A stretch of 64,000 nucleotides of DNA, taken from assembly GCF_038396675.1 (NCBI RefSeq), contig NC_088920.1, forward strand, positions 67,695,001 through 67,759,000, in the 5' to 3' direction. A model generated the notes under the pieces. It was given only the letters and a program-made list of their open reading frames with translations. It was not told the origin of the DNA and did not search any database. Origin of the DNA: Hydra vulgaris (Eukaryota > Cnidaria > Hydrozoa > Anthoathecata > Hydridae). Positions 31,981-58,432 of the stretch are shown piece after piece (position 1 is the first letter of the stretch; each line of letters begins with the position of its first letter). The position numbers and the translations under genes are program-made.

Positions 31981-32790
31981 CTTTTTGTAGATATAAATTA
32001 TGAAAAGAAATAGGCGATAAGTTTGTTTTACATTGAACCATGAAACATAAAATATTAAAAACATTTAGTTTGTATATATTTCATTTCATATAAAAGAGGT
32101 TTGGCGTGAGCAAAACGGCCTTTAAAATTTATAAATCGTGCAACATGCTTCTGTTGCCGATAAAGATGTTCGAGTTTTCCTTTATTTGTACTTCCCCAAG
32201 CAATATTAGCATAGCTTAAATGGCAATGAATTATTAAGTAATATAATTGAATTAATGTATGTTTGTTTAATACGCTTCTTACTGTGTATAAAATCCCTAT
32301 ACTCTTAGAAATTTTATTACATAAATTTGCAATGTGGTTTGTCCAAGTAAGATTTTCATCAATATACACACCAAAAAATTTTGTCACTATACCCGTTTAA
32401 TAAGAATATCATCAATAAAAAGATTTGGCATATTAATTAAAAGTTGGTGTTTTTTACCAGCTGGATGGAAAAGAATCCATTTAGTTTTTTCAATATTTAA
32501 TGATAATTTGTTTAATTTAAACCAATTAGAGACTTTAGCCAGTTCAATGTTCATGTTGTTAATTAATGTTATTATGAGAGAGAAATAAGTTGGAATCATC
32601 AGCAAACATAATTGTAATTAGATTTGAAGCTTTAAATAGGTCGTTAATGTAAATTAAAAATAAAAGAGATCCTAATATGGATTCTTGCGGAACTCCGCAT
32701 GTTACATTTAACAAACTAGATGATGTACTTTCATCTGCATAAACAAATTGCTTTCTACTATATGATGATAACGTAAGTTACAATTCTTGT
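31980..32790 (-). pseudogene. Non-LTR retrotransposon reverse transcriptase fragment
   Basis: Leftward, the palm region reads GVPQESILGSLLFLIYIND near 32690 and MFADDSNLF near 32610 (the YADD-type box as FADD). Next come frame 32605-32387 (SNWFKLNKLSLNIEKTKW) and frame 32387-32055 (FFGVYIDENLTWTNHI, then LYYLIIHCHLSYANIAWG), the thumb region. It is 5'-truncated near 32790 and has frame changes. The style is that of Jockey/CR1-like elements. Its truncated end abuts the large viral region. Confidence 0.7.
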
Positions 32791-32997
32791 AAGAGTCAGA
32801 GTCAACGTCATCAAACCGTGAAAAACCGACGTCCGTGTAAAAAAAGTTGAAATAAAACGTTAAAACCGAGTGTCGAATGAAAGTGATGAAAATTTCCCGG
32901 TCTCAAAAAAAAAGTTGGCGCATGCGCGCAAAAAAAAAGATCAGATGACAAAAAAATTTTTTTATTTAAAAAAAACTGTTACAGTTAAAAATAAAGG

Positions 32998-33228
32998 TTA
33001 CAATATCGATTTTTTTGCTTCTCTGAAAATAGGATATTTTTCTTTGACAAAGTTTTCAAACGTCATGTGTGGATGAAATCGTTTTCCAATGGTAACATAA
33101 TGATTATAAATGTCGAGTTCTTCAAAAAATGTTTTTTGATATTTTTCTGCAGACAACAAGACAAATACCAGTTCTTCACCAGTTAATTGGATTGTGTTTT
33201 CGACAGTACAATTGCGATTTCCACACAT
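32998..33228 (-). CDS. Small unknown viral protein (76 residues)
   Basis: The gene starts MCGNRNCTVENTI, with a leading Cys pair, and continues with acidic/aromatic helix-forming sequence. It is not recognised. A T tract ending in AG (AG at 33241-33242) and a short leader precede the ATG, the arrangement shared by the accessory genes. It is the outermost gene at the left end of the viral region. Confidence 0.5.
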   Translation of the reverse strand: MCGNRNCTVENTIQLTGEELVFVLLSAEKYQKTFFEELDIYNHYVTIGKRFHPHMTFENFVKEKYPIFREAKKSIL

Positions 33229-33317: not shown

Positions 33318-33563
33318 TTACAAAAATGAATCATTATAAAAATTTTTATTGAGTTCAAATGGGGGTGCATCGCAAATCCATTGCTCTCGATATTGAGGTG
33401 TTTCTTTTATTTGTTTTTTGTTTTTTAGTTCTAATTTTTCACAATTTTCATAATCCAGTCCTTTTAATGTTGAATTCAATTTTTTGAGTTTTAAATTAGC
33501 TGGTGGTAATTCAAACGGTGGAGCGGAGAGTTCTTCATCCCAGTTTTCATTATTATTAATCAT
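33318..33563 (-). CDS. Small unknown protein with repeated APPFEL motif
   Basis: This 81-residue acidic protein has the segment APPFEL twice (residues about 14-19 and 66-71), each preceded by acidic or Cys/Asp residues. Repeated short motifs in an otherwise disordered protein suggest a bivalent linear binding motif for a partner protein. No domain is visible. The ATG is preceded by the T-tract/AG leader (AG at 33577-33578). Confidence 0.5.
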   Translation of the reverse strand: MINNNENWDEELSAPPFELPPANLKLKKLNSTLKGLDYENCEKLELKNKKQIKETPQYREQWICDAPPFELNKNFYNDSFL

Positions 33564-33690
33564 TTTTTATTTATATCTAAAAAAAAGAAAAAATGTTAGT
33601 ATAAAGTAATATAAAAAATAAAAAAAAACATAAAAAAAACACAAAAAAAATGCGATAAAATATATATTCTAAAAATAAAAAATACAAAGG

Positions 33691-33810
33691 TTATTTATTT
33701 AGCACACATGATTGACATAACCCGCATTTCTTGATGCAAAAGTAACGTTTGTTTAATCGATTTGAATGTTCTAAAGAATGCTTTTGCATTTTGAAATAGT
33801 AGGCATACAT
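33691..33810 (-). CDS. Tiny Cys-motif ORF (39 residues)
   Basis: A 40-codon frame starts two bases after a TTTTTTTACAG acceptor-like site and ends in CIKKCGLCQSC, a possible zinc-binding cluster. It could be a separate small protein or the last exon of a spliced gene. Support is the conserved 5' arrangement and the cysteine pattern. Confidence 0.35.
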   Translation of the reverse strand: MYAYYFKMQKHSLEHSNRLNKRYFCIKKCGLCQSCVLNK

Positions 33811-33955
33811 GGCTGTAAAAAAAAAAAGAATTAATAAAAAATTATAATGATAAAAATAAATACAGAAAAAAAAATATTCCTTTTATTTGTTTTTTTATTT
33901 TTTTGTTTGACTTTCTTTTGCTGTAACCATATTTCATTTTTTTTTATTAGTTTGT

Positions 33956-34426
33956 CTATAAATATAAAATGTTATCATTATAATGTACAAAATTATTTTC
34001 ACGAATATAATAATATTGATCTATTGCCCATTGAATGTATTTTCTAATACAATTATAAAAAAAATCAAGTTGTTCATTTTTAATATAACGATTATTATAG
34101 TGCGATCTAAACATTTCGTATAAAGAAGCTATAATTTTTCTTTGTATCCAATAAAATAAATTATGATTGAATAGAAAACTAATGTCGTAATCATAAGAAA
34201 AGTCACAAATATAAAAAGATTTGTTTTCATCATAATAAAAATATAAATTTCCAAGCTGTTCTTTTAATAATTCAAATTCAATTTTAATTCTTCTATATGC
34301 CAATTTTCTTTTACACAAATCTTTTAACGTTTTCAAGTCTACATCCATGTTATTTTTTGTTTCTGATGTAAACCAACTCACAATGTGGATAATTTCGTAT
34401 TCATAAAAGTGCTTACTTCTTTGCAT
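33956..34426 (-). CDS. Unknown protein, paralogue of the 34461-35189 gene
   Basis: 156 residues, rich in Tyr, Phe, Asn and Ile. A segment TLKDLCKRKLAYRRIKIEF matches TLKDLCKRRLAQERIQFEF of the next gene upstream, and the helical C-terminal regions also correspond, so the two arose by duplication. No domain or membrane segment is clear. T-tract/AG leader with AG at 34442-34443. Function unknown; it sits in the leftward block with TRAF, DED and death-domain genes. Confidence 0.6.
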   Translation of the reverse strand: MQRSKHFYEYEIIHIVSWFTSETKNNMDVDLKTLKDLCKRKLAYRRIKIEFELLKEQLGNLYFYYDENKSFYICDFSYDYDISFLFNHNLFYWIQRKIIASLYEMFRSHYNNRYIKNEQLDFFYNCIRKYIQWAIDQYYYIRENNFVHYNDNILYL

Positions 34427-34460
34427 TTTTTTATTAGTTAACTAAAAAAAATAAAAAAAA

Positions 34461-35189
34461 TTAAAAATATTGTTTTACAATTTGAAAATGAATAAAACAA
34501 GGTTCAATAGTATAAAAATATTGTTGTTGTGACCAATTTATATATTCCATGATTAAACGATATAATTTTCGTATTAAATGTATTTCCAGTTGTCTATTTG
34601 GATCGGCAAAATAGGATATTTCTGTGAAAAGTAAATGAAATAAAGTAAAAAGATATCGTCTTTGAAGATAATAAAAGGATAAACGTTTACTTATAAAAGG
34701 TAAATGATAAAAAATATATATTTTATAATAGGTGTAAAACAATAATCGAATATTATCTGGATCTTTCCATTTAATATGTGGTAGTTTGGTTTTATCGAAT
34801 AAACAAACAATTTTTTCTCGCAATTGATCGAATTCAAATTGAATTCGTTCTTGTGCCAATCTTCTTTTACACAAATCTTTCAAAGTAAGTTGGGTTTGAT
34901 TTTCATTGACAAATTTGTTTGTTTTATCCAATGTCGAATCATCAAAGTCAAAAATATAATATGAATAATGTCGTTCTTCTGGACTAAACCAGATGAGTGT
35001 TTGTTGTTCAAAGTTTTTAACATAAGAAAAAATGTTTTCTAAATAATGACTAGCTTTTCTTGTTTCTTTGTCTATTTCTATAAACTTTTTTTCTCGTGCC
35101 ATTTGTTTATGAAGTCTTTGTAAAAAGTGACGAAGTGTAGTTTCTTCTTTATCAAGTATTCTTCTAATATTTCCCCAGTTGCTTCCCAT
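34461..35189 (-). CDS. Unknown protein, longer paralogue (242 residues)
   Basis: The N-terminal helical region (residues about 1-60) is followed by an acidic segment and then the module shared with the neighbouring gene (LTLKDLCKRRLAQERI, residues about 100-115) and aromatic-rich helices. No known family is recognised. Leader with AG at 35207-35208 and ATG at 35189. Confidence 0.6.
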   Translation of the reverse strand: MGSNWGNIRRILDKEETTLRHFLQRLHKQMAREKKFIEIDKETRKASHYLENIFSYVKNFEQQTLIWFSPEERHYSYYIFDFDDSTLDKTNKFVNENQTQLTLKDLCKRRLAQERIQFEFDQLREKIVCLFDKTKLPHIKWKDPDNIRLLFYTYYKIYIFYHLPFISKRLSFYYLQRRYLFTLFHLLFTEISYFADPNRQLEIHLIRKLYRLIMEYINWSQQQYFYTIEPCFIHFQIVKQYF

Positions 35190-35307
35190 TATTTTTAATT
35201 AGTTGTCTAAAAAAAAAAAAAGTTTACAAATGGAGTTAATACAAGTAAAAAAATTTACAAATTTGAGTTATACAAGTAAAAAATTTTTTTTCCTAAAAAA
35301 AAAAGAG

Positions 35308-35727
35308 TTAAATGAATTCTTGTGCACATTCAGGTGCTTTAGCTGGTTTTGGATTATATAAATGAAATAGTTCTTGTTGTTTTGCTTCTACAACTGCACT
35401 TGGATATGCATATACAGGTGGATTATTAACAACGCATTCTTCGTAACTAGGAAGACGTGGTATTTTATTTTTGTATTTGTTGAAAATATCATTTCGATGA
35501 ATTGTTTTACATAATACAAGTAGATATTCCAATTTACTTTCTAATGATTCGTAAAGATGGCCATGTTCACTTTGAATAGTATTATCTTTAAAGTATTCTA
35601 TAATATCCAAACCATTTTTTAAAGTTTGTTTGATTCCTAACGGTATTCTGAGTAAGAATTTGATAGATTGCACGTTGTTGGTTGTTAGTTCCAAACTAAT
35701 TTCTCTGAATATATCAATTGTATTCAT
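35308..35727 (-). CDS. Death-effector-domain-like protein with PPxY tail
   Basis: Residues about 3-85 follow the six-helix death effector pattern: FREISLELTTNNVQSIKFLL, then a helix with GLDIIEYFKDN, then LLVLCKTIHRNDIFNKY. The last resembles the L-x-x-I-x-R-x-D-L element near the end of DEDs. DEDs assemble caspase-8/FADD complexes, and viral single or double DED proteins can block them. The tail (residues about 95-139) is Pro-rich and contains PPVY, a PPxY motif of the kind bound by WW-domain ubiquitin ligases. It lies next to the TRAF-like gene. Leader AG at 35746-35747. Domain call is by pattern; structure prediction would settle it. Confidence 0.55.
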   Translation of the reverse strand: MNTIDIFREISLELTTNNVQSIKFLLRIPLGIKQTLKNGLDIIEYFKDNTIQSEHGHLYESLESKLEYLLVLCKTIHRNDIFNKYKNKIPRLPSYEECVVNNPPVYAYPSAVVEAKQQELFHLYNPKPAKAPECAQEFI

Positions 35728-35835
35728 TTTTTTTTATTAGTTAATCTAAAAAAAAAAAAGGGTTAATAACGTTAGATAAAGTACAAAAAAACATTTTAAA
35801 AAATAGGATAAATACATTTTTTTAAATAAAATATG

Positions 35836-36876
35836 TTATTGTATACTAATCGTAATAAATAAATTATTGTTAATAATAAATGGTTTTAGTTCTTCGTGTG
35901 AAATAAAATTCTTATAACCAACAGCCACATTATATTCGGTGGTAGGTTTATCAAATGAACTGTCGTCTAAAAGTTGAAGATAATTATTGTTGGTAGTAGT
36001 ACGAGTAAAAAATTGTTCTTTATTTCTCAAGGTGATATTGACATTTTTGGTAAAAGGCCATTGTAAAGCATCGTCCAGTTCACCTCTTAACAATTGAAAG
36101 TAAATGGCTAGATTGTTGATGACGGTACTTCGCGTATACACTTTTATTCGATAACGGTATCCTTCTGTTGTGTAAATGGGTTCTGAATAAAATGTTTCAT
36201 CTGATAATAGCCTGAGATTCATTTGATCGAGTTTGATCAATTGCATGTCTTTAATAACGTGTTGAATTACCTTGACTTCTTTAGGTTGTTGAATGGAATT
36301 TTTTAAAGCTAAGAATTCTGTGCTATTTTCTTCTGCAATATGATAAAGTTTTGTTATTTCTTGTTTGAGATGTTCTGTATCTTGTTGATTTGCTAAAACC
36401 AACATGTTGTCATAAAAGAGACTTTTTAATTCTGCCATTTCTTGGTTCGTTTTTGCTAGGGTTTGTTGAAGTTTGTCATTTTCTTCTTTTAGATTTTTAA
36501 TTTCTTTTTCTTGAAGACTCTTCATTTTAATCATGATTTGATTCATAGAAAGATTCAAATAATTTAAATTTTTCTTTTCGTCTTGAACGACTTGGTTCAA
36601 ATAACGATTTTGTTGCTCTTTATAATATTGAAAGCAGATGACAGAGTGCTCATAATAATCTTGATCATCGATTTTGGTATTACAAAAAAAACATATTTTT
36701 TGTATATCTAGAAATTCATAATCACATTCGTGGTTTAACAAATCTTGTACCTTTTTTTTACAGGTGAAACATTCGTGGGAGTATTGTTCTGTAGAACAAT
36801 CTGCTTGATGCTGTAAAAGTTCTTTTGAACTAAATTCTTTGTCGCAAAAACAGCAAGGATATATGTTGGCTGACAT
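35836..36876 (-). CDS. TRAF-like protein (zinc fingers, coiled coil, MATH domain; no RING)
   Basis: 346 residues. Three Cys/His clusters of TRAF-type zinc-finger style lie in residues 1-85 (CCFCDKEFSSKELLQHQADC, then HECFTCKKKVQDLLNHEC, then ICFFCNTKI...HSVIC). A coiled coil covers about 90-190. A TRAF-C/MATH domain covers about 215-346, with RYRIKVYTRS, FQLLRGELDDALQWPF and TEYNVAVGYKNFISHEEL matching the conserved strands. Cellular TRAFs trimerise, bind TNF- and Toll-type receptor tails and use a RING to signal. The RING is missing here, as expected for a competitive inhibitor. Leader AG at 36891-36892. Probably captured from a host. Confidence 0.8.
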   Translation of the reverse strand: MSANIYPCCFCDKEFSSKELLQHQADCSTEQYSHECFTCKKKVQDLLNHECDYEFLDIQKICFFCNTKIDDQDYYEHSVICFQYYKEQQNRYLNQVVQDEKKNLNYLNLSMNQIMIKMKSLQEKEIKNLKEENDKLQQTLAKTNQEMAELKSLFYDNMLVLANQQDTEHLKQEITKLYHIAEENSTEFLALKNSIQQPKEVKVIQHVIKDMQLIKLDQMNLRLLSDETFYSEPIYTTEGYRYRIKVYTRSTVINNLAIYFQLLRGELDDALQWPFTKNVNITLRNKEQFFTRTTTNNNYLQLLDDSSFDKPTTEYNVAVGYKNFISHEELKPFIINNNLFITISIQ

Positions 36877-36945
36877 TTTTTTATTAGTTGCTGAAAAAAA
36901 AACATTTATTTATATAAGAACTATAAAAAAATATACATGTCTTTT

Positions 36946-37149
36946 TTAACATAAAAGAATTAATAAATAAACAAAATTGCTCAACAAAACATATAAAAGA
37001 ATAAAAATATAAATAAGGTTTTTTTCAATAACTTCTTCTTCTTCTTCAAATATATTGTTAAAAGTTATATTTTCTACTTCTTTTTGTTCTTCATTTAAAT
37101 AATCACCAAACCCAGGAAACATATCTTCAAAATCATCATTATTATTCAT
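36946..37149 (-). CDS. Small acidic membrane-anchored protein
   Basis: 67 residues. The N-terminal half is acidic (DDFEDMFPGFGDYLNEEQ, EEEEEVIE). The C-terminal 25 residues form one hydrophobic segment (LIYIFILLYVLLSNFVYLLI), so it would be tail-anchored. The GDYLNEE segment resembles GDYINEE of the spliced gene at 37361-37792, suggesting a shared origin. Leader AG at 37163-37164. Confidence 0.55.
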   Translation of the reverse strand: MNNNDDFEDMFPGFGDYLNEEQKEVENITFNNIFEEEEEVIEKNLIYIFILLYVLLSNFVYLLILLC

Positions 37150-37360
37150 TTTTTTTAGTTGTCTAAAAAAAAGAAAAAAATTACAAAATAAAGTGATCTT
37201 ATTTTATTACAACAGTTCGTCTTATGCTGCAATACGATGAAAAAAAATTACAAAATAAAGTTACAAAATAAAGTTCTTATTGTCGAGTTTATTATTTAAA
37301 AAGTGATGATTGTTATTTGTTTTTAGTTGACTAAAAAAAGATATATTTATAAATAAAAAA

Positions 37361-37792
37361 TTATAAATAAAGCTCTGGTAAGTTGTCCATTTTATTAATA
37401 ACGTCTATAACGTATTGTTCCCAATCCATTTCATCTAAGATTTCATGCATTTCTTTTTCTATTTCTTCCACTTCTTTTTCCATTTCTTCTTCTAACATTT
37501 GTAATTTTAGTTCTTCAATATCATCTGATTCTTCTTCCATTTCTTGTACTAATTGATCTAAATATTTTTCATAATCTTTCTCTGTTAATTCTTCCATTTC
37601 CATAAGTTCTTCCAAATCTTGTTCTTCTTCTTTTGTCAATAACAACTCGTGATAGCAAAGAGTCTCTTCGTTAATATAATCCCCATAACTAATAAGAAAA
37701 AAAATAAAAAAATTTAAAAAAATTATAAAAAAAAACAAAGAAAAAACAAATGACAAAACTTACCATCCACATTTTTTGACGTATTGTTTCAT
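37361..37792 (-). CDS. Two-exon acidic coiled-coil protein
   Basis: Exon 1 is 37764-37792 (MKQYVKKCG plus two bases) and ends at a GTAAGT donor. Exon 2 is 37361-37688 and starts after TTATTAG. Joining keeps the frame and gives 118 residues; the intron is 75 nt. Exon 2 is extremely Glu-rich with repeated methionines and coiled-coil character. No ATG with a good leader exists in exon 2, while exon 1 has the usual T-tract/AG leader (AG at 37817-37818). Function unknown. Confidence 0.65.
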
Positions 37793-37859
37793 TTTTTTTT
37801 TAAATATATTAGTTTGCTAAAAAAAAAATAAAAAAATTACAAAAAAATTACAAAAAAAA

Positions 37860-38174
37860 TTATTGTAATATATAGTTTTGAATTATTTTCATAGTTTCTT
37901 CTATATTTTTTAATAGTTCTAAATTATTTTGTTTTGTTGTTATGTCAAGTGACCATGTCCATAACGCATCATATAAAGCACGAGCTGCTTCGATTTCGGT
38001 TCCTTTTCTTTGATAAATTAAATTTAAAAGTCTCATCATTCTTTCGTTCGTATCATGATAATCAGTTTGTATGCATACGATATCACGGTTTTTGTAGTCC
38101 AGATATTCAGCTAACGTTTGCCAATGTGATTGTAAATGTTGTGCTATTTTTAGTTTTAATCGTATAAAATTCAT
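37860..38174 (-). CDS. Death-domain protein 1
   Basis: 104 residues, nearly all one death-fold domain. The pattern is LKIAQHLQSHWQTLAEYL (helices 1-2 with the conserved Trp), then a helix around IVCIQTDYHDTNERMMRLL and a last pair with EAARALYDALW. Death domains mediate homotypic contacts in receptor, MyD88, FADD and ankyrin/UNC5-type complexes. A stand-alone viral copy could act as a decoy. It adjoins a second death-domain gene. Leader AG at 38184-38185. Confidence 0.7.
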   Translation of the reverse strand: MNFIRLKLKIAQHLQSHWQTLAEYLDYKNRDIVCIQTDYHDTNERMMRLLNLIYQRKGTEIEAARALYDALWTWSLDITTKQNNLELLKNIEETMKIIQNYILQ

Positions 38175-38201
38175 TATTTTATGCTAAAAAATATAAAAAC
38201 A

Positions 38202-38492
38202 TTAATTATTAAATAAAACTAATTTACATTGTAATAAATTAAATAAAAGTTCTTGCTTGTCGGTTTCAATTTCCCATCTTGTTAATACATAATATAAATG
38301 ATTTATAGCTCTTTTTTTATCTTTGTGTTGCGTTAAATAAAGAAGTAAAATTTTTTTAATTTTGTCAAAGTTTTTTATATAATTCACGTCAATTTTTTTA
38401 ATAATGTGTCTTTTAAAGTGTAGATCAATCGCTAATTGTTTCCAATGGTGATTTAATTGTTTTGAAATCGTATTTATTATTTGTTTGTACAT
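38202..38492 (-). CDS. Death-domain protein 2
   Basis: 96 residues with the same arrangement as the neighbouring gene: SKQLNHHWKQLAIDLHF, IIKKIDVNYIKNFDKIKKIL, KKRAINHLYYVLTRWEIET. It is clearly a diverged tandem paralogue. The upstream region has a T tract but the AG spacing is less regular (TTTTTTTAATACAATAG before ATG). Predicted cytoplasmic adaptor mimic. Confidence 0.6.
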   Translation of the reverse strand: MYKQIINTISKQLNHHWKQLAIDLHFKRHIIKKIDVNYIKNFDKIKKILLLYLTQHKDKKRAINHLYYVLTRWEIETDKQELLFNLLQCKLVLFNN

Positions 38493-38603
38493 TTTTTTCT
38501 ATTGTATTAAAAAAAGATGTAAAATTCTATTGTATTAAAAAATCTTGTATTAAAAAATGTAAAAATTCAAATAAACAAAAAAAATATAAAGAAAAAATTA
38601 ACA

Positions 38604-38690
38604 CTAAAAAAGACTATAATTAATTTTTTTAATTTCAGTTCTTTTTAAATTTAACAAAAACGCCAAATGTTTCCATTCATAAAATAGTAA
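38604..38690 (-). pseudogene. Death-domain fragment (third tandem copy)
   Basis: A short leftward segment reads EWKHLAFLLNLKRTEIKKI before a stop. It matches the Trp-containing helix 1-2 region of the death-domain gene just downstream (HWKQLAIDLHFKRHIIKKI). It has no good start and no C-terminal half, so it is a remnant of a third copy. Confidence 0.55.
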
Positions 38691-43700: not shown

Positions 43701-44864
43701 TTATATTAAATTCAGAGCGATTTGCCTTTTTATTTCTTTTTTAGTCATGACATCATCAATAGGTACATCTAAAAATTGATTGGCAGTCTTTAATCGCGTA
43801 TAATTGTTTGCGTAAATTCTATCCATTTCATTTTGCATCATGTAATAAATGTTTTCCTCGTTCATCACAGCTGGAATGGCTTGAATATCCAATAGGGATA
43901 ACTTACCCCACGTACCTTCATAATTTGTTCTTAAGAATCCTGCATCTTTTAAAAATCTTTTAGCAGCATTTTGAGCTAATAATTGTTTTTCGTAAATATC
44001 ATAATGTAAAGGAATTTGTTTTGTTTTCATAGACAAAAGATCACGTTCCAGATTTTCCTGTTTTTTCATATAAAAATGCAACTGCATGTCTTTTTCAAAC
44101 AGTTGTTTAGCAGTGTTATCAAGGTATTGAAAGAGTTCGTGTTTAATAAACTGAAAAAATGAATAAAGATTTATTTGAACTAGTGAAGAGGCATGAAGCG
44201 TTGTTACTTCAAAAAAATAATGGTTTAACAGTCTGCACAACGAAGGTAAATATATTTGATCTGTATATAATACATTTTCGCTGCGAAAGACTAGAGCTAC
44301 AAAATAGGCGGCAAATGCACCACATAAACTACTATCATTCCATTGAAAAGGAAATTTATTGTATGAAAAAAATACATTTTGATTGCCAGTGATTTCGCTA
44401 TATTTTAAAATAAATTTGGTAAACCAATAAAATTCACGATTTTCTGCTGTCCATTCTGTAGGAAAATGATTGGATTGACGTATATAAGAATTAATTTCAA
44501 TTTCGTTGTAGTTAATGTTAATCGTGATGATTTGTATATTGCTATTCACTTCTTCTACTGCTTCAAACAAATATTTATTAAATCTTAAATATATTGGAAT
44601 TTGTTGCAATACACTTTCTTCACCTAAACTATCAAAACAAAAAAAATGACCCTTGTCTATTTTCATCAACACTCTCCAATGTTGACCTGCCTCTTTTGTA
44701 GTTTCATTGTTGTAAATGATAAAGGAACCATTTTTTTTCATTTGTTGAATAATATGAATATGTGTTTTTGTTTGACTTAGTTCGTCAAAAGCATATATTC
44801 CTATAAAATAATTTTTAAATTCTGAATTTTTAAAAAAACGAGACAAAGAATCATCAGTAGCCAT
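43701..44864 (-). CDS. Adenain-like cysteine protease with C-terminal extension
   Basis: 387 residues. Catalytic residues appear in the adenovirus protease order: His62 in GQHWRVL, Asp78 in FFCFDSLGE, Gln174 in FPFQW, Cys181 in SLCGAFAAYFV. Adenain is about 204 residues, so the first half is the protease. The remaining 160 residues form helices, a coiled region and a conserved-looking end. In adenoviruses and Polintons the enzyme matures capsid and core proteins. Its likely targets include the basic protein at 41850, which has an LIGKG site. It lies in a leftward group with 43360 and 44871. Confidence 0.75.
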   Translation of the reverse strand: MATDDSLSRFFKNSEFKNYFIGIYAFDELSQTKTHIHIIQQMKKNGSFIIYNNETTKEAGQHWRVLMKIDKGHFFCFDSLGEESVLQQIPIYLRFNKYLFEAVEEVNSNIQIITININYNEIEINSYIRQSNHFPTEWTAENREFYWFTKFILKYSEITGNQNVFFSYNKFPFQWNDSSLCGAFAAYFVALVFRSENVLYTDQIYLPSLCRLLNHYFFEVTTLHASSLVQINLYSFFQFIKHELFQYLDNTAKQLFEKDMQLHFYMKKQENLERDLLSMKTKQIPLHYDIYEKQLLAQNAAKRFLKDAGFLRTNYEGTWGKLSLLDIQAIPAVMNEENIYYMMQNEMDRIYANNYTRLKTANQFLDVPIDDVMTKKEIKRQIALNLI

Positions 44865-48498: not shown

Positions 48499-48972
48499 AT
48501 GGAAAATAAAGAGTTTAAATCACTTGAAATTACAGATATTCATGAATGGTCTTTTTATGAAACAAAAGAAAGCGCTTGTTTTGATTTGAGAAGCTCAAAG
48601 GATGTTATACTTCAACCCCATCAACGTGTTTTAGTAAATACTGGAGTGTATATAGATAAAATGGATTCAAATTTAGTAGGACAGATATATTCAAAATCAG
48701 GTATTGCTTTTAAACATGGTGTGGTAGTGTTCAATGCTCCAGGCATAATAGATGTCGATTATAAAGACGAAATTAAAGTCTTATTGATGAATCATTCTGA
48801 AGAAAATGTTGTGTTTAAACGTGGAGATGCTATTGCTCAAATGGGATTTGTAAAAATGTTTAAAGCTGTAAAAAATGTAATAGAATTTGATGGGTGTTGT
48901 TGTGGTCAAGTAAAAATGACAATGATTAAAGATGTAGAAAGAAAAGGTGGTTTTGGATCCACTGGAAAATAA
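48499..48972 (+). CDS. dut: dUTPase (trimeric type)
   Basis: 157 residues with all five motifs: ACFDLRSS (motif 1), IYSKSGIAFKHG (2), NAPGIIDVDYKDEI (3), RGDAIAQMGF (4) and RKGGFGSTGK (5). The enzyme hydrolyses dUTP to dUMP and pyrophosphate, limiting uracil in viral DNA and supplying dTMP synthesis. Length is normal and no key residue is missing, so it should be active. It uses a TATA promoter, unlike the helicase and polymerase genes. Confidence 0.93.
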   Translation: MENKEFKSLEITDIHEWSFYETKESACFDLRSSKDVILQPHQRVLVNTGVYIDKMDSNLVGQIYSKSGIAFKHGVVVFNAPGIIDVDYKDEIKVLLMNHSEENVVFKRGDAIAQMGFVKMFKAVKNVIEFDGCCCGQVKMTMIKDVERKGGFGSTGK

Positions 48973-49027: not shown

Positions 49028-49429
49028 ATGTCATTTCTTCTTTTGGACGCTTGGAACGACATTAGAAAATTAGATGTTGAACAACATACTCGTTTAAAAA
49101 CCATATCATTGTTTGTAAGTTACGGTTGTCAAGCTATTTCATTTGGTGAAGTAGTCGATAATACGATTAAAATGAAGACGAACTTTTATCAAGCAATTAT
49201 TTATCAAGCAACTAATTTATCAAATTTATATTTGATTGTTTTTGAAACTATTTATGAAAATTGTCAATCTATGAAAAACATGATATTATCAATGAATATA
49301 AGAGATGACGAAAATTATTTAACAGATTTACAATTTATCGAAAACACTTTTTTAGAATTAATAACATTTATTAATAAACATATTAAATGTAAACAAAATT
49401 TAGTATCATTTAACTGTATAATCATTTAA
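49028..49429 (+). CDS. Helical unknown protein, family H1 copy a
   Basis: 133 residues. ATG 49028 is chosen because the T-tract/AG leader (AG at 49013-49014) sits 14 nt before it; an upstream in-frame ATG would read through the tract. The pattern W.DI..LD.EQ..RL..I..FV followed by a Cys near the end matches the next gene. No domain known. Confidence 0.55.
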   Translation: MSFLLLDAWNDIRKLDVEQHTRLKTISLFVSYGCQAISFGEVVDNTIKMKTNFYQAIIYQATNLSNLYLIVFETIYENCQSMKNMILSMNIRDDENYLTDLQFIENTFLELITFINKHIKCKQNLVSFNCIII

Positions 49430-49555
49430 CTGTATAAATGAAGTGTATCATTTTTTTATAATTTTAACTGTATAAACATTGTTCTGTATATTTTTTATTT
49501 ATTTTTTAGATTAGTAAAAAAAATTTTTATTTTTTTTAGAAAAAACTATTAAAAA

Positions 49556-49996
49556 ATGGATTGGTCTACACGCTTTGCTTGGGATACTATTTTACAACAT
49601 GATGAAGAACAATATGGACGTTTATCAAATATAATGGGTTTTGTTGGTAACCGTCATATGGATTCATTTACTCGTGTAATGGAAGATATTAATGATATGA
49701 AAAGTTCTTTCATACAAACAATTCAAGTCATGTCTTTAAATAAAGTAGATTGCTATTTGGACATTTTTTCTAAAATTAAACTTGATTGTGGCGAAAGAGA
49801 AAAATTACTTATGGAAAATATAGAAGATATTGTGATTGAGGATATGAACGAAATGGAAAAGAATAGTTGTATTTATAATTATATAACGAGTTTAAAAACC
49901 ATTGCAGAAATTTTTTCAGAATTGTTAACTTTTAGTTATAAACATATTGAATGTAATCACGATTTAAATTATGAATTTAAACATTTATCTGTATAA
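49556..49996 (+). CDS. Helical unknown protein, family H1 copy b
   Basis: 146 residues, paralogue of 49028-49429: WDTILQHDEEQYGRLSNI corresponds to WNDIRKLDVEQHTRLKTI, and ELLTFSYKHIECNHDL to ELITFINKHIKCKQNL. Predicted all-helical. Upstream is a T-rich region with AG elements near 49509 and 49539. Function unknown. Confidence 0.55.
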   Translation: MDWSTRFAWDTILQHDEEQYGRLSNIMGFVGNRHMDSFTRVMEDINDMKSSFIQTIQVMSLNKVDCYLDIFSKIKLDCGEREKLLMENIEDIVIEDMNEMEKNSCIYNYITSLKTIAEIFSELLTFSYKHIECNHDLNYEFKHLSV

Positions 49997-50030
49997 TTTT
50001 TTTATTTTTTTTAGATTAACTAATTAAAAA

Positions 50031-50528
50031 ATGAATAATGAAAAATGGTCTGAAGATCGCATCGAATGGATTACCAAATGTTACAAACTACATCATTCTG
50101 AACGGAAATTGTGGGAGTTTTTGGAAAAATTATCACCTGTTTTTTATTTTCATTTTGTTATTGTTAAAGAATTTTTAACTAACGACGATCATCAAGATGG
50201 CATAGTGGGACAACTTGATAAAATAACAGAAATTATAGATAAAAATAACGAGCTCATCAAAAAATATCTCAATATACGTCAATTTTTAATAGAGATGTTC
50301 AATTTCATGATTGTCACTTGCAATGCTGCGATTGAAGAAGACGAATTTATTGTAAAAAAAGAAAAGGAAGAATTTGCAAGAAGAGATGAAGCCTTGTTCT
50401 CTTATATGAAAGTAAACGTGGACATGAAAAATTTTCATTACATTTCAAAGCACGAAGAAAGATTAATATTAAAAAAAACAATTAAAAATTGTTTTACGCT
50501 TCTTCTTATAAATATTTATATCGAGTAA
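50031..50528 (+). CDS. Helical unknown protein, family H2 copy a
   Basis: 165 residues with long helices. KKEKEEFARRDEALFSYMK matches the corresponding part of the next gene (EDKEKQKERDMVMIEYIEK). Leader AG at 50013-50014 followed by attaactaattaaaaa. No function assigned. Confidence 0.55.
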   Translation: MNNEKWSEDRIEWITKCYKLHHSERKLWEFLEKLSPVFYFHFVIVKEFLTNDDHQDGIVGQLDKITEIIDKNNELIKKYLNIRQFLIEMFNFMIVTCNAAIEEDEFIVKKEKEEFARRDEALFSYMKVNVDMKNFHYISKHEERLILKKTIKNCFTLLLINIYIE

Positions 50529-50590
50529 CTTGATTTTTTTTATACTTTTAATAACTTTTGTATTTTTTTTTAGGTAAACTAATAAAAAAT

Positions 50591-51112
50591 ATGGATTTCT
50601 TTCGAGATTATAAATGTGGAAAATACATCTCTCATAAATATAGAAAGTTGGATAAACGTAACGCAGATGTTGCTGCTGAATATAAAATAGTAAAATGTTT
50701 TGTTGAATATGGTGATGATTTTAAAGATTATTTTAAAAATTTTCACGTCAACATGTTAAATGAAACAGTAGACGAATTGAACCGTTTAATACGAAAAGAT
50801 GCTGAAAAAGATGGTTTTATAAACAGATTGAGAACTTTGCAACTGTATTATCAAGCCATGCACAAATTATTTACGACAAATCAAAAAGAGATTGAATGGC
50901 TTAAAATAGAGGTAGAAGAAGATAAAGAAAAACAAAAAGAAAGAGATATGGTTATGATTGAGTATATTGAAAAAAATGTCCCTGAATTTCGCAAAGAAAT
51001 AATGAAACATTTTTCTTTTGTCAACAAGACTGAAAAAACAATACGTATTCGCGAAGAATTACAACTTTCTTTTTTAAAAACAATGGAATATTTGAGTACC
51101 TTTTTTGATTAA
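50591..51112 (+). CDS. Helical unknown protein, family H2 copy b
   Basis: 173 residues from the ATG at 50591, chosen because the leader AG (50572-50573) precedes it; an upstream alternative would cross the tract. Charged helical protein, paralogue of 50031-50528. No motif beyond coiled-coil character. Confidence 0.55.
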   Translation: MDFFRDYKCGKYISHKYRKLDKRNADVAAEYKIVKCFVEYGDDFKDYFKNFHVNMLNETVDELNRLIRKDAEKDGFINRLRTLQLYYQAMHKLFTTNQKEIEWLKIEVEEDKEKQKERDMVMIEYIEKNVPEFRKEIMKHFSFVNKTEKTIRIREELQLSFLKTMEYLSTFFD

Positions 51113-51148
51113 ATTTTTTTTTTCTCTTTAGATTACATAATAAAAAAA

Positions 51149-51313
51149 ATGGTAAAAATAATAGTTCGACCAACAAACAGCATTATGGCAACAACACCAA
51201 CAATTTGTCAATACATAGAATTGTGTCATCATAAAGAATGTCAAAAGACTAAACTTATTTATGCAATGAATGTGGAAAAAAAAATTGTTATCAATAATAT
51301 CATTTTTAGATAA
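51149..51313 (+). CDS. Tiny Cys/His protein (54 residues)
   Basis: A short frame with the full accessory leader (AG at 51130-51131, attacataataaaa, ATG). It contains CQYIELCHHKEC, a possible zinc site similar in flavour to the Cys clusters of the 52-54 kb family. The conserved leader is the main evidence that it is real. Confidence 0.45.
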   Translation: MVKIIVRPTNSIMATTPTICQYIELCHHKECQKTKLIYAMNVEKKIVINNIIFR

Positions 51314-51339
51314 ATTTTATTGTCATTTTTTTAATCATT

Positions 51340-51371
51340 TTATTGTATTTTTTTAGATTACATAATAAAAA
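51340..51371 (+). promoter_or_regulatory. Representative T-tract/AG leader (accessory and replication genes)
   Basis: T-rich tract, AG (51355-51356), then attacataataaaa and ATG. The same layout occurs on the plus strand with AG at 49013, 50013, 50572, 51130, 51991, 52375, 52643, 53070, 53391, 54000, 54486, 54731, 55018 and 56280. On the minus strand it occurs at 33241, 33577, 34442, 35207, 35746, 36891, 37163, 37817, 38184 and 39422. It reads as a 3' splice site or as an A/T-rich promoter/initiator. Confidence 0.65.
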
Positions 51372-51962
51372 ATGGTTGTGGTTTGTGAATTTGAAATTGT
51401 TAAAAATAAAGATGGAAGGTTTGCTCTTATTGATCGCGACAACAATGCTTTTCGTTACGGCAATCTTCTTCTAGAATGTATAAGACAAACTTATTTGAAT
51501 TCTATAAATGGATGGCACTGTTTGGAAAATGGTTTGGAAGATTATCATCTTAAAGAATTGTTTCAAGAAGATAGTTTGGAAGATTATCATCTTAAAGAAT
51601 TGTTTCAAGAAGAAATGACCCAAGATGAATTTGATGAATTTGTAAAACAAGTGCAACGAATTAAACCTAAAAAACTACGAGTTGATAAATATTCAGAAGA
51701 AAAAACTTTTAAAAGAGAAAAAGAAATTTTGGAAGCATTTTTATTAGAAGATTGGCGCATGAGTGAACAAGCTTCTGAAATGTGTGAAAAAGTAGCTAAA
51801 AAAATAGGGCTTAACAAAACAACACTTTTATTTATTTGTAAAAAACCTGATTTTGTTTATGAAGCTCTATGTAAAATAGCTCAATGTGAATGTATATCGA
51901 ATTGTGTATTTTGTATTTTAAATGCTTGTTACATTTATGCTGAAATAAGAAGAATTTTTTAA
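51372..51962 (+). CDS. Unknown protein with a duplicated 14-residue unit
   Basis: 196 residues. LEDYHLKELFQE occurs twice in tandem (residues about 55-82) because of a perfect or near-perfect 42 bp DNA duplication. A charged middle and a C-terminal Cys-rich part (CKIAQCECISNCVFCILNAC) follow. Leader AG at 51355-51356. Family unknown. Confidence 0.6.
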   Translation: MVVVCEFEIVKNKDGRFALIDRDNNAFRYGNLLLECIRQTYLNSINGWHCLENGLEDYHLKELFQEDSLEDYHLKELFQEEMTQDEFDEFVKQVQRIKPKKLRVDKYSEEKTFKREKEILEAFLLEDWRMSEQASEMCEKVAKKIGLNKTTLLFICKKPDFVYEALCKIAQCECISNCVFCILNACYIYAEIRRIF

Positions 51963-52008
51963 AATTTTTTAAAAAAATGTATTTTTTTTTAGATTACATA
52001 ATTAAAAA

Positions 52009-52257
52009 ATGGAAAAAAATATAAAGTTGGCTTGCAAAAAATTGGTATTGCCTGAAGTGTTGATGAAAAATAATTTTCGTTATCATAAAGAGGATATTAA
52101 TAGATTGGCTTCGTGTGCTTGCGAATCGCATAATATGTGTCGAAAATGTAAAAAGATTGTGTTGGAAGTATTATTTTCAGAAAATAGTGATTATGTGTTG
52201 AAATATGAACCACCTTTTTATATAGATAAATATGGATTGATATGGATGAATAATTAA
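52009..52257 (+). CDS. Cys-cluster family protein 1
   Basis: 82 residues. The motif is MEKNIKLACKKL, a short helix pair, then SCACESHNMCRKCKK: a CxC followed by CxxC about 8 residues on, likely one zinc site. At least three neighbours share it. Leader AG at 51991-51992. Function unknown. Confidence 0.6.
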   Translation: MEKNIKLACKKLVLPEVLMKNNFRYHKEDINRLASCACESHNMCRKCKKIVLEVLFSENSDYVLKYEPPFYIDKYGLIWMNN

Positions 52258-52389
52258 ATTTTGATATTAAATTTTTGTATACATATTTTTTTTGTATTTT
52301 TTATATTGAATTTTGTTTAAACTTTGTATATGTGTTTTTTGTATTTTTATATTGAATTTTTGTTATTTATTTTTAGATTTATATAAAAA

Positions 52390-52566
52390 ATGGAAAATAA
52401 CATAATATTAGCCAGCAAAAAATTGGGTTATTCTGAAGATTTAATGAAAAAAGACCTTTATAACTTAGCTTCGTGTGATTGTACAACAGAAGATGTGCTT
52501 CGTTTTTTATATGTTAGAATGATAATGGCAGACAAAAGACAGAATAAAGATAGAAATCGAGAATAA
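52390..52566 (+). CDS. Cys-cluster family protein 2, shortened
   Basis: 58 residues. The start (MENNIILASKKLGYSEDLM) and ASCDCTT match the family, but the second Cys pair is replaced by hydrophobic sequence, so the zinc site is incomplete. Leader AG at 52375-52376. Possibly degenerating. Confidence 0.5.
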   Translation: MENNIILASKKLGYSEDLMKKDLYNLASCDCTTEDVLRFLYVRMIMADKRQNKDRNRE

Positions 52567-52659
52567 AACAAATAATTATATTTTTTTATGGTATTTTTGT
52601 TTAAAACTTTGTAATATTGAATTTTTTATATTAAATTTTTTTAGCATTACATAATAAAA

Positions 52660-52881
52660 ATGGAAAAAAATATAAAATTAGCATGTATAAAATTGGGATT
52701 CAGTGAAGTGTTGACGAAAAAAAACTTTCGTTATTATAAACAGGAAATTTATCAGCTAGCTTCGTGTGTTTGCAAAAGAGATAATTTGTGTGAGAAATGT
52801 CGAACGATTGTGAGAGATGTTATAATGGCAGAAAAAAGAGACTCTGTAAGAAGAAAACGAGACTATCAAGAAATTGAATAA
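52660..52881 (+). CDS. Cys-cluster family protein 3
   Basis: 73 residues, close to copy 1: MEKNIKLACIKLGFSEVL, NFRYYKQEIYQLASC, VCKRDNLCEKC, and then a basic tail. Leader AG at 52643-52644. Tandem duplication of 52009-52257 is evident. Confidence 0.6.
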   Translation: MEKNIKLACIKLGFSEVLTKKNFRYYKQEIYQLASCVCKRDNLCEKCRTIVRDVIMAEKRDSVRRKRDYQEIE

Positions 52882-53086
52882 TGACATTTTGTATATGGAA
52901 TTTTATTTAAAAACTTTGTAATATTTAATGTTTTATTTAATAATTTTTTTCATATTAAATTTTATAGTATTTTGTTCATATTTTTTTTATTTTTTATATT
53001 AAATTTTATAGCATTTTGTTTATATTTTTTTTGTTTAAAACTTTGTATACATTTTTTTTTGTATTTTTTAGATTTCATAATAAAAA

Positions 53087-53269
53087 ATGGAAAATAATAC
53101 AATGATGGAATTGACAAAAAAAACAAAGAAATGTCTGAATTATTTGGCTTTTTGCACTTGCAATATGTTCGATATGTGTCAAGAATGTAAACGAATAGGA
53201 AACGAATTGTCAATTTTAAATCTTGATTATCCAACAATATATAAACATTTTTTAGACACGTTTGTTTAA
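53087..53269 (+). CDS. Cys-cluster family protein 4, diverged
   Basis: 60 residues. FCTCNMFDMCQECKRI keeps the CxC...CxxC spacing; the rest is diverged. Leader AG at 53070-53071. Confidence 0.55.
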   Translation: MENNTMMELTKKTKKCLNYLAFCTCNMFDMCQECKRIGNELSILNLDYPTIYKHFLDTFV

Positions 53270-53421
53270 ACAAGCTTATGTTGTATTTAAATAATAAAAA
53301 TTTTTTTTTATATTTTGTTTAAATTTTGTATATATTATTTTGTTTATTTTTTTATAACGAATTTTGTATACATTTTTTGTATTTTTTTTTAGATTACATA
53401 ATAAAATGACATAATAAAAAA

Positions 53422-53955
53422 ATGGAACAAGAGGAGATATCGTGGTGCAACTATTCTATTATATTAAAAGCTTCAAAAAAAATGGATTTACCTAAAAAGA
53501 TAATCTTAAAAGATTATAAAAAACAAAAGAAATTTTTAACCGAATGTCAATGTGACGAATACAAACCATCATTTCTTTGTATGCATTGTTGTTCTTGTGT
53601 GGATACAGCTTCAAAAAAAATGGATTTGACTAAAGAACAACTTTTGGAAATTTATAGAAATAAAAAGAAAAAGATTAAATTTTTGGCTGAATGTCAATGT
53701 GGAGAATACGATCCTGTGTTTGATTATCGTTTTCTTTGTTTATGTTGTAGTTATTGTGAGGATTCAATAAAAGAATTTTACACTATGATAATAAAAGCTT
53801 CTAGTAAACTTGCTTTATCGTCTGATTTATTAAACAAAATTTTTGGTCTTATTAATTATGAAATACGTGATTTAGTTAAATGTAATTGTGTTTTTGAACA
53901 TTTGTGTGACAATTGTACTTTTCAAAAAAATTTGGTATATCGATGGTTTCGTTAA
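53422..53955 (+). CDS. Cys-cluster family protein 5, three repeats
   Basis: 177 residues made of three units of the family module in one chain. Units 1 and 2 contain ASKKMDL and ECQC(D/G)EY plus a CxxCC/CC..C cluster; unit 3 contains ASSKLALSSDL, KCNCVFEHLCDNC. It is an internal fusion of what the neighbours carry singly. Leader AG at 53391-53392; a second copy of the cataataaaa leader element sits before the ATG. Confidence 0.65.
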   Translation: MEQEEISWCNYSIILKASKKMDLPKKIILKDYKKQKKFLTECQCDEYKPSFLCMHCCSCVDTASKKMDLTKEQLLEIYRNKKKKIKFLAECQCGEYDPVFDYRFLCLCCSYCEDSIKEFYTMIIKASSKLALSSDLLNKIFGLINYEIRDLVKCNCVFEHLCDNCTFQKNLVYRWFR

Positions 53956-54016
53956 AGTAACTATTTTTTTATTAATGTATTTTTTTTCTTTATTTTTTTA
54001 GTTTACATAATAAAAA

Positions 54017-54469
54017 ATGCAACTAACAGAAAATGATTTGGATTTTTTGATGGAAAAAATATACCAATTCAATCGAGCTCACCCAGCTACATTGGAAGAA
54101 ATTCGAATACATGCGATTAGTTCAAAACAAATTTTATGTAGACGATGTCAATGGTATGGTGAGTACAAGTGGGACGATTTTTTCAATCAAGAAATGAAAC
54201 GAGTACCTCATATATTGATTTTGATGGTTTTTCAATATATTAAAAAACATTATCATATTTATTTGAATTTAAATTTTGAATGTTTTTATGATTTTTTTAA
54301 ATTAAAATGTAAAGAAGATGTTTTAAACCATGTAAAAGAAAAATGTGAAGAAATTGAAAATTGTAAACATTATTTAAACGAATGTGAAGAGTGTGATGAG
54401 TATAGAGTATCTGATGGTAAAACTTGTTCATTTATATATTGTGAAAAATGTTTTAATTCTGAATATTAA
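54017..54469 (+). CDS. Unknown protein with several Cys pairs
   Basis: 150 residues. CRRCQWYG near residue 42 and CEECDEYR...CSFIYCEKC near the end suggest two zinc sites around a helical middle. Leader AG at 54000-54001. Not clearly part of the Cys-cluster family. Confidence 0.55.
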   Translation: MQLTENDLDFLMEKIYQFNRAHPATLEEIRIHAISSKQILCRRCQWYGEYKWDDFFNQEMKRVPHILILMVFQYIKKHYHIYLNLNFECFYDFFKLKCKEDVLNHVKEKCEEIENCKHYLNECEECDEYRVSDGKTCSFIYCEKCFNSEY

Positions 54470-55034: not shown

Positions 55035-56267
55035 ATGTTATCTTTGCAACAACAAAAAGCACTTCAATGGCTTGATGAAGGAAAGAATTTCTTTATTACT
55101 GGTGGTGCTGGATGCGGTAAAAGTTATATTGTCAACCAAATTGCTCAAAGCGAACAAATTTATAAAACAATACATATTACTGCGAGTACAGGAAAAGCAT
55201 CTTATTTAATCAATGGTGTCACCATACATGCTTTTGCTGGTATAGAAACTGGTGTTAAAAGTGTCGATTATTATAAACGACATATGCATCAAGACATTAA
55301 AAAAACATGGTTGGAAACTGATGTTTTAATTATTGATGAAATTTCAATGATTAGCGCTTCAACATTTGATTTATTACATTCGATAGCTTGTGAAATTAGA
55401 CAATGTTACGATGAATTATTTGGTGGTATACAAGTGATTGCTTGTGGTGATTTTTTTCAGTTGCCACCTGTTTCAGGTCAATTTGTTTTTAAATCACAAA
55501 TATGGCTACACTACATGACAGAAGTGTTGGTTTTAACTCAATGTTTTAGACAAAAAGACAACGAACAATTTTTTGGAGCTTTAAATGAACTACGTGTTGG
55601 TCAAGTTTCAGACAAAACTATTGATTATTTTATGACACGTTGTTTTGAAAAAGATGAAAATTTAAACTCTAAATATACAAGATTGTTTTTTAGAAACATC
55701 GAAGTGGATGTTTATAACAATCAAAAAATGGAAACTATCAAACAAGAAGGGTATTGGTTTTATGCTAAAGATGTTATTAAAAATCGAAATATTCCATGCT
55801 CGTTTCAAATTCCGGCAGCTGTTCATCTTAAAATAGGTGCTATTGTGATGCTTGTAAGAAATATTAATGTGGAAGAAGGTTTGTGTAATGGTACTATTGG
55901 TACCGTTATTTTAATAGAAAGTAATGCAGTTTGGGTGATGATGAATAAAAAAGAAGTCAAAATTGAATGTGTCAAAGAAGAAATTTTAGATTGCTCTCAT
56001 GCTGTCGTAGGCTCAAGATTTGGTTTGCCTTTAAAATTAGCATTTTCTTTTACGGTTCATAAAGCACAAGGAAGTACCATGAATAAAGCCGTTGTTCAAT
56101 TTAATTCAAAGGCTTTTATTAATAGTCTTTATTATGTTTCTTTATCACGAGTTTGCAATATTAACGATATATTTATAATTATTAATAATAAATTTGATTT
56201 ACGAACACTATTTAAAAGTATTACTGTTGATTCTGATGTTTTGGAATTTTATAAAAAATACATGTAA
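55035..56267 (+). CDS. Pif1/RecD-like SF1B DNA helicase
   Basis: 410 residues. Motifs are Walker A TGGAGCGKS (residues about 21-29), ASTGKAS (Ia), LIIDEISMI (Walker B, about 98-106), GDFFQLPPV (III, about 143), LTQCFRQ (IV) and FTVHKAQGS (VI, about 340). It is a 5'-3' helicase assisting DNA replication or recombination. Length is on the short side for Pif1, with no extra domains. Leader: TTTTTTTTCAG (55018-55019) then caaaataataaaaaa and ATG. It lies just upstream of the polymerase. Confidence 0.88.
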   Translation: MLSLQQQKALQWLDEGKNFFITGGAGCGKSYIVNQIAQSEQIYKTIHITASTGKASYLINGVTIHAFAGIETGVKSVDYYKRHMHQDIKKTWLETDVLIIDEISMISASTFDLLHSIACEIRQCYDELFGGIQVIACGDFFQLPPVSGQFVFKSQIWLHYMTEVLVLTQCFRQKDNEQFFGALNELRVGQVSDKTIDYFMTRCFEKDENLNSKYTRLFFRNIEVDVYNNQKMETIKQEGYWFYAKDVIKNRNIPCSFQIPAAVHLKIGAIVMLVRNINVEEGLCNGTIGTVILIESNAVWVMMNKKEVKIECVKEEILDCSHAVVGSRFGLPLKLAFSFTVHKAQGSTMNKAVVQFNSKAFINSLYYVSLSRVCNINDIFIIINNKFDLRTLFKSITVDSDVLEFYKKYM

Positions 56268-58429: not shown

Positions 58430-58432
58430 GAA

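Follow-up and report, generated by a model that had tools for sequence, protein, structure and literature searches.

A window of 64,000 nucleotides of the Hydra vulgaris genome (positions 67,695,001-67,759,000 of contig C1, in an assembly of 911.5 Mb and 15 contigs) contains the left end of a provirus of about 42.8 kb that encodes, in a compact row of minus-strand open reading frames (ORFs), a TRAF-like protein for which no RING was found, a putative single death-effector-domain (DED) protein and two proteins that consist of a death domain only (DD1 and DD2), a third protein of this last kind (DD3) being encoded further along the element. The interpretation that we favour, and that we regard as probable, is that these products act as single-domain decoys, joining the signalling complexes of the host without giving an output, that most ORFs of this row (here termed the cassette) are expressed as separate mRNAs, and that their carrier is a Polinton-type virus of Hydra. 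A first-pass annotation, made from the sequence alone, had assigned to a viral element of an early-branching animal a RING-less TRAF-like protein, a DED protein with a PPxY tail, two death-domain proteins and a death-domain remnant in this region, and had noted a third intact death-domain gene at 62790. Its coordinates were correct, and to its description can now be added that the element continues past the window edge and that the row includes additional ORFs.

Judged by its sequence, from which its boundaries were also derived, the element is an integrated DNA virus of the Polinton/Maverick type. It runs from one terminal inverted repeat (TIR) to the other, with its left end inside the window and its right end past the window edge. 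The left TIR (32763..32959, plus strand) has its inverted partner in a right-flanking locus, L032, at positions 2375-2574 (75375-75574 on the scale of the window and outside it), and the two copies, of about 200 bp, are identical in 193 of 201 columns (96%). They are bounded by a 6-bp target-site duplication (TSD), ACTATA, at 32757..32762 on the left and L032:2575-2580 on the right. When the host flanks are joined after removal of one ACTATA, the reverse-transcriptase frame of a long interspersed nuclear element (LINE) is continuous over the junction, which indicates a clean insertion of the element into the LINE. The right flank, outside the window, also encodes an integrase (Pfam rve, E 1.1e-6, 29.2 bits, slightly under the curated cut-off of 32.6). 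A 6-bp target duplication is a known Polinton trait, and the TIRs, the TSD and the integrase together group the element with the Polintons/Mavericks; with its spread in multiple copies, described below, they support the virus-like nature initially proposed.

The TRAF-like protein (35836..36876, minus strand) is composed of two zinc-finger-like Cx2C..H..C motifs, a coiled coil and a MATH domain. Its ORF matches the Pfam TRAF/meprin MATH family at 6.5e-19 (69 bits against a cut-off of 27.4), and its best sequence match is TRAF5 (1.2e-11). Structure prediction followed by Foldseek, as suggested in the first-pass annotation, agrees with this assignment: an AlphaFold model based on 24 sequences (the window copy and 23 of 27 database relatives), with a mean predicted local distance difference test score (pLDDT) of 63, presents a long helix at residues 71-162, the coiled coil, ahead of the MATH domain, and retrieves TRAF3 (4.4e-9) and further TRAF domains. 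Among viral structure models, the best match to it is the unnamed BFVD entry A0A346G469 (E 1.1e-10 over 366 columns, template modelling score 0.32), followed by two iridovirus TRAFs (E 4.7e-8 and 5.2e-8). The zinc-finger-like motifs, detected by pattern, number two in the window copy and fewer in some relatives, and no Pfam zf-TRAF match was obtained. No RING was found by Pfam in the window copy or by one RING pattern in 32 distinct copies, in agreement with the RING-less character first ascribed to the protein, and we therefore refer to it as a TRAF-domain protein and not as a canonical TRAF ligase. All 27 database relatives, at 56-94% identity, come from Hydra vulgaris and 24 of them are named TRAF2-, TRAF3- or TRAF5-like; given that these entries match a mobile virus, their use as host TRAFs calls for prior checking.

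The three death-domain-only proteins all exceed the curated Pfam Death cut-off of 22.6 bits, namely DD1 (37860..38174, minus strand; 3.6e-8, 33.9 bits), DD2 (38202..38492, minus strand; 4.4e-6, 27.2 bits) and DD3 (62790..63038, plus strand; 1.3e-10, 41.6 bits), the last of which overlaps the preceding ORF by 8 nt. The Death family is likewise matched by all 17 of the DD1 relatives given to Pfam (26 distinct copies in all) and by 13 of 14 DD2 relatives. When compared with PDB sequences, a DD3 profile built from 21 of 34 distinct copies has RIPK1 (2.2e-9) and FADD (5e-7) as its top true death domains, the designed WD40-type entries that also appear in the list being matched over 14 residues only; the DD1 profile comes closest to THOC1 (1.4e-4) and RIPK1 (9.5e-4). 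The proposed remnant corresponds to 38619..38681 (minus strand), which is 81% identical over 21 residues (E 2e-9) to the DD2 family of a relative (locus L023) and represents a further gene of the DD2 type. All the death-domain genes initially described can thus be upheld.

The DED protein (35308..35727, minus strand) has 139 residues, a single DED match (Pfam E 4.6e-7) and a tail with LPxYEE and PPxY motifs. Across 35 distinct intact copies the PPxY motif is kept in 32, LPxYEE in 32 and RxDI in 31, RxDI being the form taken here by the RxDL-type motif that is typical of the last helix of DEDs. A DED match at E<=0.01 was obtained for 26 of the 29 relatives given to Pfam, and a profile of the family aligns in the same register with three DED exons that lie in this genome outside the element (E 0.0011, with a probability of just 20.7%). 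The DED is the weakest of our domain calls, and a chance match is unlikely. For the MATH and death domains, chance matches were rejected on the basis of E-values and of recurrence in relatives.

These genes belong to a minus-strand row between 38.5 and 33.3 kb, in which the listed ORFs are 27-392 nt apart. Its remaining members are a strongly acidic ORF (37361-37756) that is conserved and forms part of a predicted two-exon gene (37361..37792), an acidic microprotein (DDFEDMFPGFGD) with a hydrophobic C-terminal segment (36946..37149), an ORF with no assigned function (34461..35189) and its paralogue at 33956..34426, which has no known domain and cross-matches it, a small ORF with two APPFEL repeats (33318..33563) and the outermost small ORF (32998..33228), all on the minus strand. 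Pfam detected no effector domain (caspase, kinase or RING) in the cassette ORFs.

The cassette recurs throughout the genome. In searches whose counts are lower bounds, and in which some matches hold stops, at least 148 matches were recorded for the TRAF ORF (117 of 810 candidates scored, some copies giving two matches), at least 151 for the DED ORF (150 of 363 scored) and at least 150 for DD3 (150 of 633 scored). Among 30 loci drawn from the TRAF search, one of which is the window, the DED gene adjoins the TRAF gene in all 30, DD1 and each of the two acidic ORFs are present in 29, and the 34461 ORF in 26. The same order is found in 20 loci chosen for their divergence (TRAF 56-80% identical), with DED next to TRAF in 20, DD1 in 19 and DD2 in 18. 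The association extends to DD3. For 78 of the 150 DED copies listed, a DD3 match is also listed at a distance of 12-40 kb (median 26.7 kb), on the opposite strand and on the side where it is expected. The random expectation for this number is a mean of 0.45 (maximum 3 in 200), and on the wrong side the number is 6. As both genes were counted only among listed matches, nothing about absence follows from the 72 DED copies that lack such a partner. The ten copies L003-L012, which lie on C2, C3, C10, C14 and C15, differ from L003 and L004 by 0-1 mismatches in 4,038 bp, with two gap columns in one of them, and this near-identity across five chromosomes points to recent amplification. The window copy is 95.2% identical to these ten, so that the family comprises both very young and old members.

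Median ratios of non-synonymous to synonymous substitution (dN/dS), computed by the Nei-Gojobori method on distinct intact ORFs with broken copies dropped and over pairs that are not independent, are 0.20 for DED (35 copies), 0.27 for TRAF (32), 0.39 for DD1 (26), 0.33 for DD2 (14), 0.35 for DD3 (35), 0.53 for 34461 (20), 0.47 for 36946 (30) and 0.30 for 37361 (7). By part, they amount to 0.17 for the DED fold and 0.29 for its tail, and to 0.23, 0.37 and 0.25 for the zinc fingers, coil and MATH domain of the TRAF-domain protein. With values of 0.20-0.53, these eight genes are, on this sequence comparison, under purifying selection. The multi-exon host loci that the first-pass annotation had named as the contrary case were not encountered: the cassette ORFs are free of introns save for one small predicted intron, the main ORFs being intronless, and they are multi-copy, dispersed, mutually syntenic and under purifying selection, while the window copy lies inside an element with TIRs and a TSD. 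We therefore rejected an ordinary host gene family as their source.

For two of the domains, the genome holds higher-scoring relatives at other places, probably cellular genes. A genome-wide MATH search (150 of 542 candidates scored) yielded 12 places at 88-146 bits, against at most 79.8 bits for listed element copies. Between three element MATH domains and two cellular-like Hydra MATH exons, identity is only 22-29%, and the two exons share 41% with each other; either the capture is old or divergence has been fast. A search with the DED family gave at least 89 matches, 64 of them above the cut-off, mainly on C2, C1 and C14 and outside the list of elements, four matches below the cut-off being element copies. 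The non-element DED exons above the Pfam cut-off form a large set clustered on few chromosomes (C2 at 0.4-19.7 Mb, C1 and C14). Separately, seven DED matches with one and the same score (30.9 bits, in a 149-residue frame) fall outside the listed DED family and might represent another DED-carrying repeat (C1:53638396, C6:1594993, C8:8696989, C8:51735990, C10:15075570, C11:31485121 and C15:13855372). Some relatives of the element also seem to carry a second gene with a MATH domain. Among 33 additional MATH matches picked from the list, 17 are found at 11-19 kb from a cassette, on the opposite strand and on the side of DD3 (14 of these distances being measured to a listed DED and 3 to a TRAF/MATH place); one shares the strand of the cassette, and for 15 no cassette is listed within 30 kb. 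An example is C5:21955319-21955666 (L108). No MATH match was obtained for the window ORFs at the corresponding position, and the window copy thus appears to be without this gene.

A sequence signal suggests how the closely spaced ORFs may be expressed. We defined an acceptor-like motif as six or more T, an optional C and AG, at most 30 nt ahead of a start. In a first count it preceded 7 of 8 cassette ORFs (all but DD2) and 10 of 11 ORFs of a second, rightward block, at 9-18 nt from the ATG for 16 of these ORFs and at 29 nt for the remaining one, and was found before 0 of 15 other window ORFs, 0 of 7 right-flank ORFs and 12 of 1031 other ATGs. This count left out ORFs whose listed start is not an ATG. 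A second count, which took the first ATG of such ORFs, added motif-bearing starts at 49028 and 50591 in the rightward block and at 33228 and 37792 on the left; five of the 12 background ATGs with the motif are the added starts. Among the added starts outside the blocks, that of 43072/43084 has the motif and those of 45634, 46393 and 40037 do not. In full, the tally for the two blocks, where ORFs are closely spaced, is 21 of 23, and outside them it is 1 of 26 ORFs, a split that is descriptive given that the blocks were delimited after the motif had been seen. Support independent of this delimitation comes from other copies of the element: the motif is kept in distinct copies before 34461 (20 of 21), DED (29 of 36), TRAF (25 of 32), 36946 (27 of 30) and DD1 (23 of 26). 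In the blocks at 49028-56294 (plus strand) and 32998-38174 (minus strand) it stands before nearly every ORF, 12 and 13 nt ahead of the ATG in the outermost ORF and the APPFEL-repeat ORF, respectively, and is often followed by a TTAACTAATAAAAA-like leader.

The acidic gene has a predicted intron of its own, recognised by pattern only, in which a 29-nt exon 1 (37792-37764) is followed by a 75-nt intron (37763-37689, GTAAGT...AG) and an in-frame exon 2 (37688-37361). In its strict form, the only one counted, this pattern recurs in 7 of 49 other loci, with TRAF down to 56% identical. In several gene models from the database an upstream exon is joined directly behind such an AG, and in one of them (P0006) the TRAF start is preceded by TNKK, as the window bases after the AG would encode. 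In the Hydra RFC140/flp operon, according to PMC3273482, a T-rich tract and AG acceptor precede the downstream ATG of closely spaced genes, and experiments established that the operon is resolved by addition of the SL-B1 spliced leader (SL). The element is similar in gene spacing and acceptor, and differs in being viral, in comprising two blocks of many ORFs and in that its splicing is predicted, whereas SL addition is known for RFC140/flp. The simplest reading of the signal would be a viral operon processed by host SL trans-splicing, and cis splicing from one leader exon would fit as well.

On these grounds, the decoy model can be outlined as follows. DD1-DD3 would fill positions in death-domain assemblies (receptor/adaptor/RIPK1- or FADD-like). 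At the caspase-8 step, DED filaments would be capped by the DED-only protein, whose LPxY/PPxY tail would recruit a WW-domain ubiquitin ligase, and the RING-less TRAF would enter host TRAF trimers without contributing E3 activity. Most cassette ORFs would reach separate mRNAs by 3' splicing shortly ahead of the ATG, most likely through host SL trans-splicing of a polycistronic RNA, and the net result would be the survival of the infected cell and a dampened NF-kB-type alarm. Titration by domain-only proteins, ligase recruitment and the inertness of a TRAF without a RING are taken from knowledge of the respective families, and by this analogy we infer that the cassette proteins would block apoptosis and NF-kB signalling. 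A wider proposal, which we put forward tentatively and rate at somewhat less than an even chance, is that an animal DNA virus keeps host-interaction and replication genes as operons resolved by host SL trans-splicing, that one of these operons is a set of co-inherited decoys against successive death-receptor/TRAF steps, and that most of the expanded Hydra "TRAF-like" genes are viral.

Several observations weigh against the decoy model. The DED score of the window ORF (30.4 bits) is under the curated cut-off of 35.9, the DED profile had no match among PDB sequences, and the DED model, predicted from a single sequence, has a pLDDT of 48 and is not usable, with no death fold among the matches listed for it. 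Of the DED protein first described, the tail stands, and the domain is recurrent but below the Pfam threshold; structural support was gained for the TRAF-domain protein and not for this one. After the first MATH strands, the viral protein has a shorter loop than the two cellular-like Hydra exons, and TRAF-motif peptides may perhaps remain unbound. Regarding expression, the basic ORF at 43072, outside the blocks, has the acceptor-like motif, and the motif is rare before DD2 (1 of 13 copies) and DD3 (3 of 33), so that the expression model leaves some of the mimics uncovered. Finally, a viral TRAF of a fish iridovirus, ORF111L of infectious spleen and kidney necrosis virus (ISKNV), binds TRADD and induces caspase-8 apoptosis, as stated in PMC3352826, and an effect of the opposite sign is therefore conceivable here.

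This precedent leads to the view that the same element and protein families serve to activate, nucleating death-domain, DED or TRAF assemblies that would result in cell killing for release or in NF-kB-like growth. Death-fold proteins are able to nucleate filaments, which lends this view some plausibility, but the cassette ORFs, being devoid of recognisable effector domains, would give no output alone, and five such genes in one element suit titration better; we consider activation unlikely, though the least so of the alternatives. Less probable by a clear margin is a purely internal role, in which death-fold and TRAF shapes have been kept for use as a scaffold, in a replication compartment or in PPxY budding. 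PPxY and LPxY do resemble late-budding motifs, the MATH domain has diverged far from its cellular-like counterparts, and acidic ORFs, one with a hydrophobic end, share the row; yet five members of one host pathway in a single element would be an odd coincidence for a structural function, and the DD3 profile still puts RIPK1 and FADD first among true death domains. Domestication of endogenised copies as Hydra immune regulators, with conservation due to host selection, appears more improbable still. The annotation of database relatives as Hydra TRAF-like genes and the many intact ORFs are in its favour, but ten copies almost identical over 4 kb on five chromosomes, together with selection on eight genes across divergent, dispersed copies, correspond to the pattern of a replicating element and not to that of a few domesticated loci.

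Precedents exist for TRAFs and DED proteins encoded by viruses. The vFLIPs of herpes- and poxviruses are viral DED proteins with two tandem DEDs; like them, the Hydra protein is small and has no caspase domain, and unlike them it combines a single DED with an LPxY/PPxY tail. The TRAF-like proteins of fish megalocytiviruses (ISKNV ORF111L and relatives) are also virus-encoded, and two iridovirus TRAFs are among the structural matches given above, but the Hydra gene resides in an integrating cnidarian element beside DED and death-domain genes, and ORF111L is described as pro-apoptotic. With Polintons/Mavericks and adintoviruses the element shares TIRs, a 6-bp duplication, an rve integrase and a large gene set, and it differs from them in its TRAF, DED and death-domain cassette. 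Mammal-associated adintoviruses are said in PMC11071296 to carry homologues of anti-apoptotic genes, and the main text of that article, which defines adintoviruses by an OTU-bearing PolB and a BLAST-recognisable hexon, contains no word starting with "death" or "TRAF". No report of this cassette was found in the literature searched on adintoviruses, Polintons, viral TRAF, DED and MATH proteins and Hydra TRAF, TNF receptor and FADD. Within that literature, the new features are the cassette combination in a cnidarian Polinton-type element, three versions of a viral death domain that stands alone, the conservation of the row and the acceptor-like motif. Protein-database searches with the DED and the three death-domain proteins returned nothing at E<=1e-3, and IMG/VR scans with TRAF, DD3, the third polymerase ORF and the capsid candidate (both described below) confirmed nothing; as the search tools favour close relatives, this is weak evidence for the absence of relatives outside Hydra. 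The conservation of a row of small genes that resemble the host's own cell-death and inflammation adaptors suggests interference with those pathways in an animal lineage that is among the oldest. If the decoy model is true, arms races over death receptors and TRAFs go back to the cnidarians, and many copies of varied age preserve the viral side.

The rest of the element carries replication genes and candidate virion genes. On the minus strand, 43701..44864 was noted by eye as a candidate adenain/Ulp1-like maturation protease, for which there was no Pfam match and no credible PDB match. On the plus strand, a dUTPase (48499..48972; Pfam 6.3e-22) precedes the rightward block of small ORFs (49028..54469), the majority of which are headed by the acceptor-like motif; within it, 52009-53955 is occupied by a row of small, mutually similar cysteine-rich ORFs. 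A PIF1-like helicase (55035..56267; Pfam 3.2e-35), with the motif 15 nt before its ATG, is followed by a polymerase region of three consecutive ORFs (56294..61956). The middle ORF matches endonuclease VII families and a PHROG DNA polymerase family (4.4e-5), and nothing convincing was obtained for the other two by Pfam or PHROG-type family searches. A cysteine-rich ORF of about 115 residues is present as a tandem duplicate (61983-62336 and 62456-62797) directly ahead of DD3. Beyond DD3, a packaging-ATPase-like ORF with weak P-loop/A32 matches starts at 63106, reaches the window edge at 64000 and continues into L031:106-1368. The sequence to the right of the window (L031 and L032) encodes the rest of this ORF, a 717-residue ORF, the rve integrase, an 892-residue ORF and a 317-residue ORF, the last two being candidates for capsid and penton judged only by their size and position; Pfam gave no match to either, nor did a PDB sequence search with the 892-residue ORF. 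Elsewhere in the window, inspection by eye identified parvovirus NS1-type helicase-like ORFs and capsid pieces at 2228-5431, which would represent another viral insertion, and retroelement-like ORFs with integrase-like and Ulp1-like protease pieces at 15845-17295 (minus strand).

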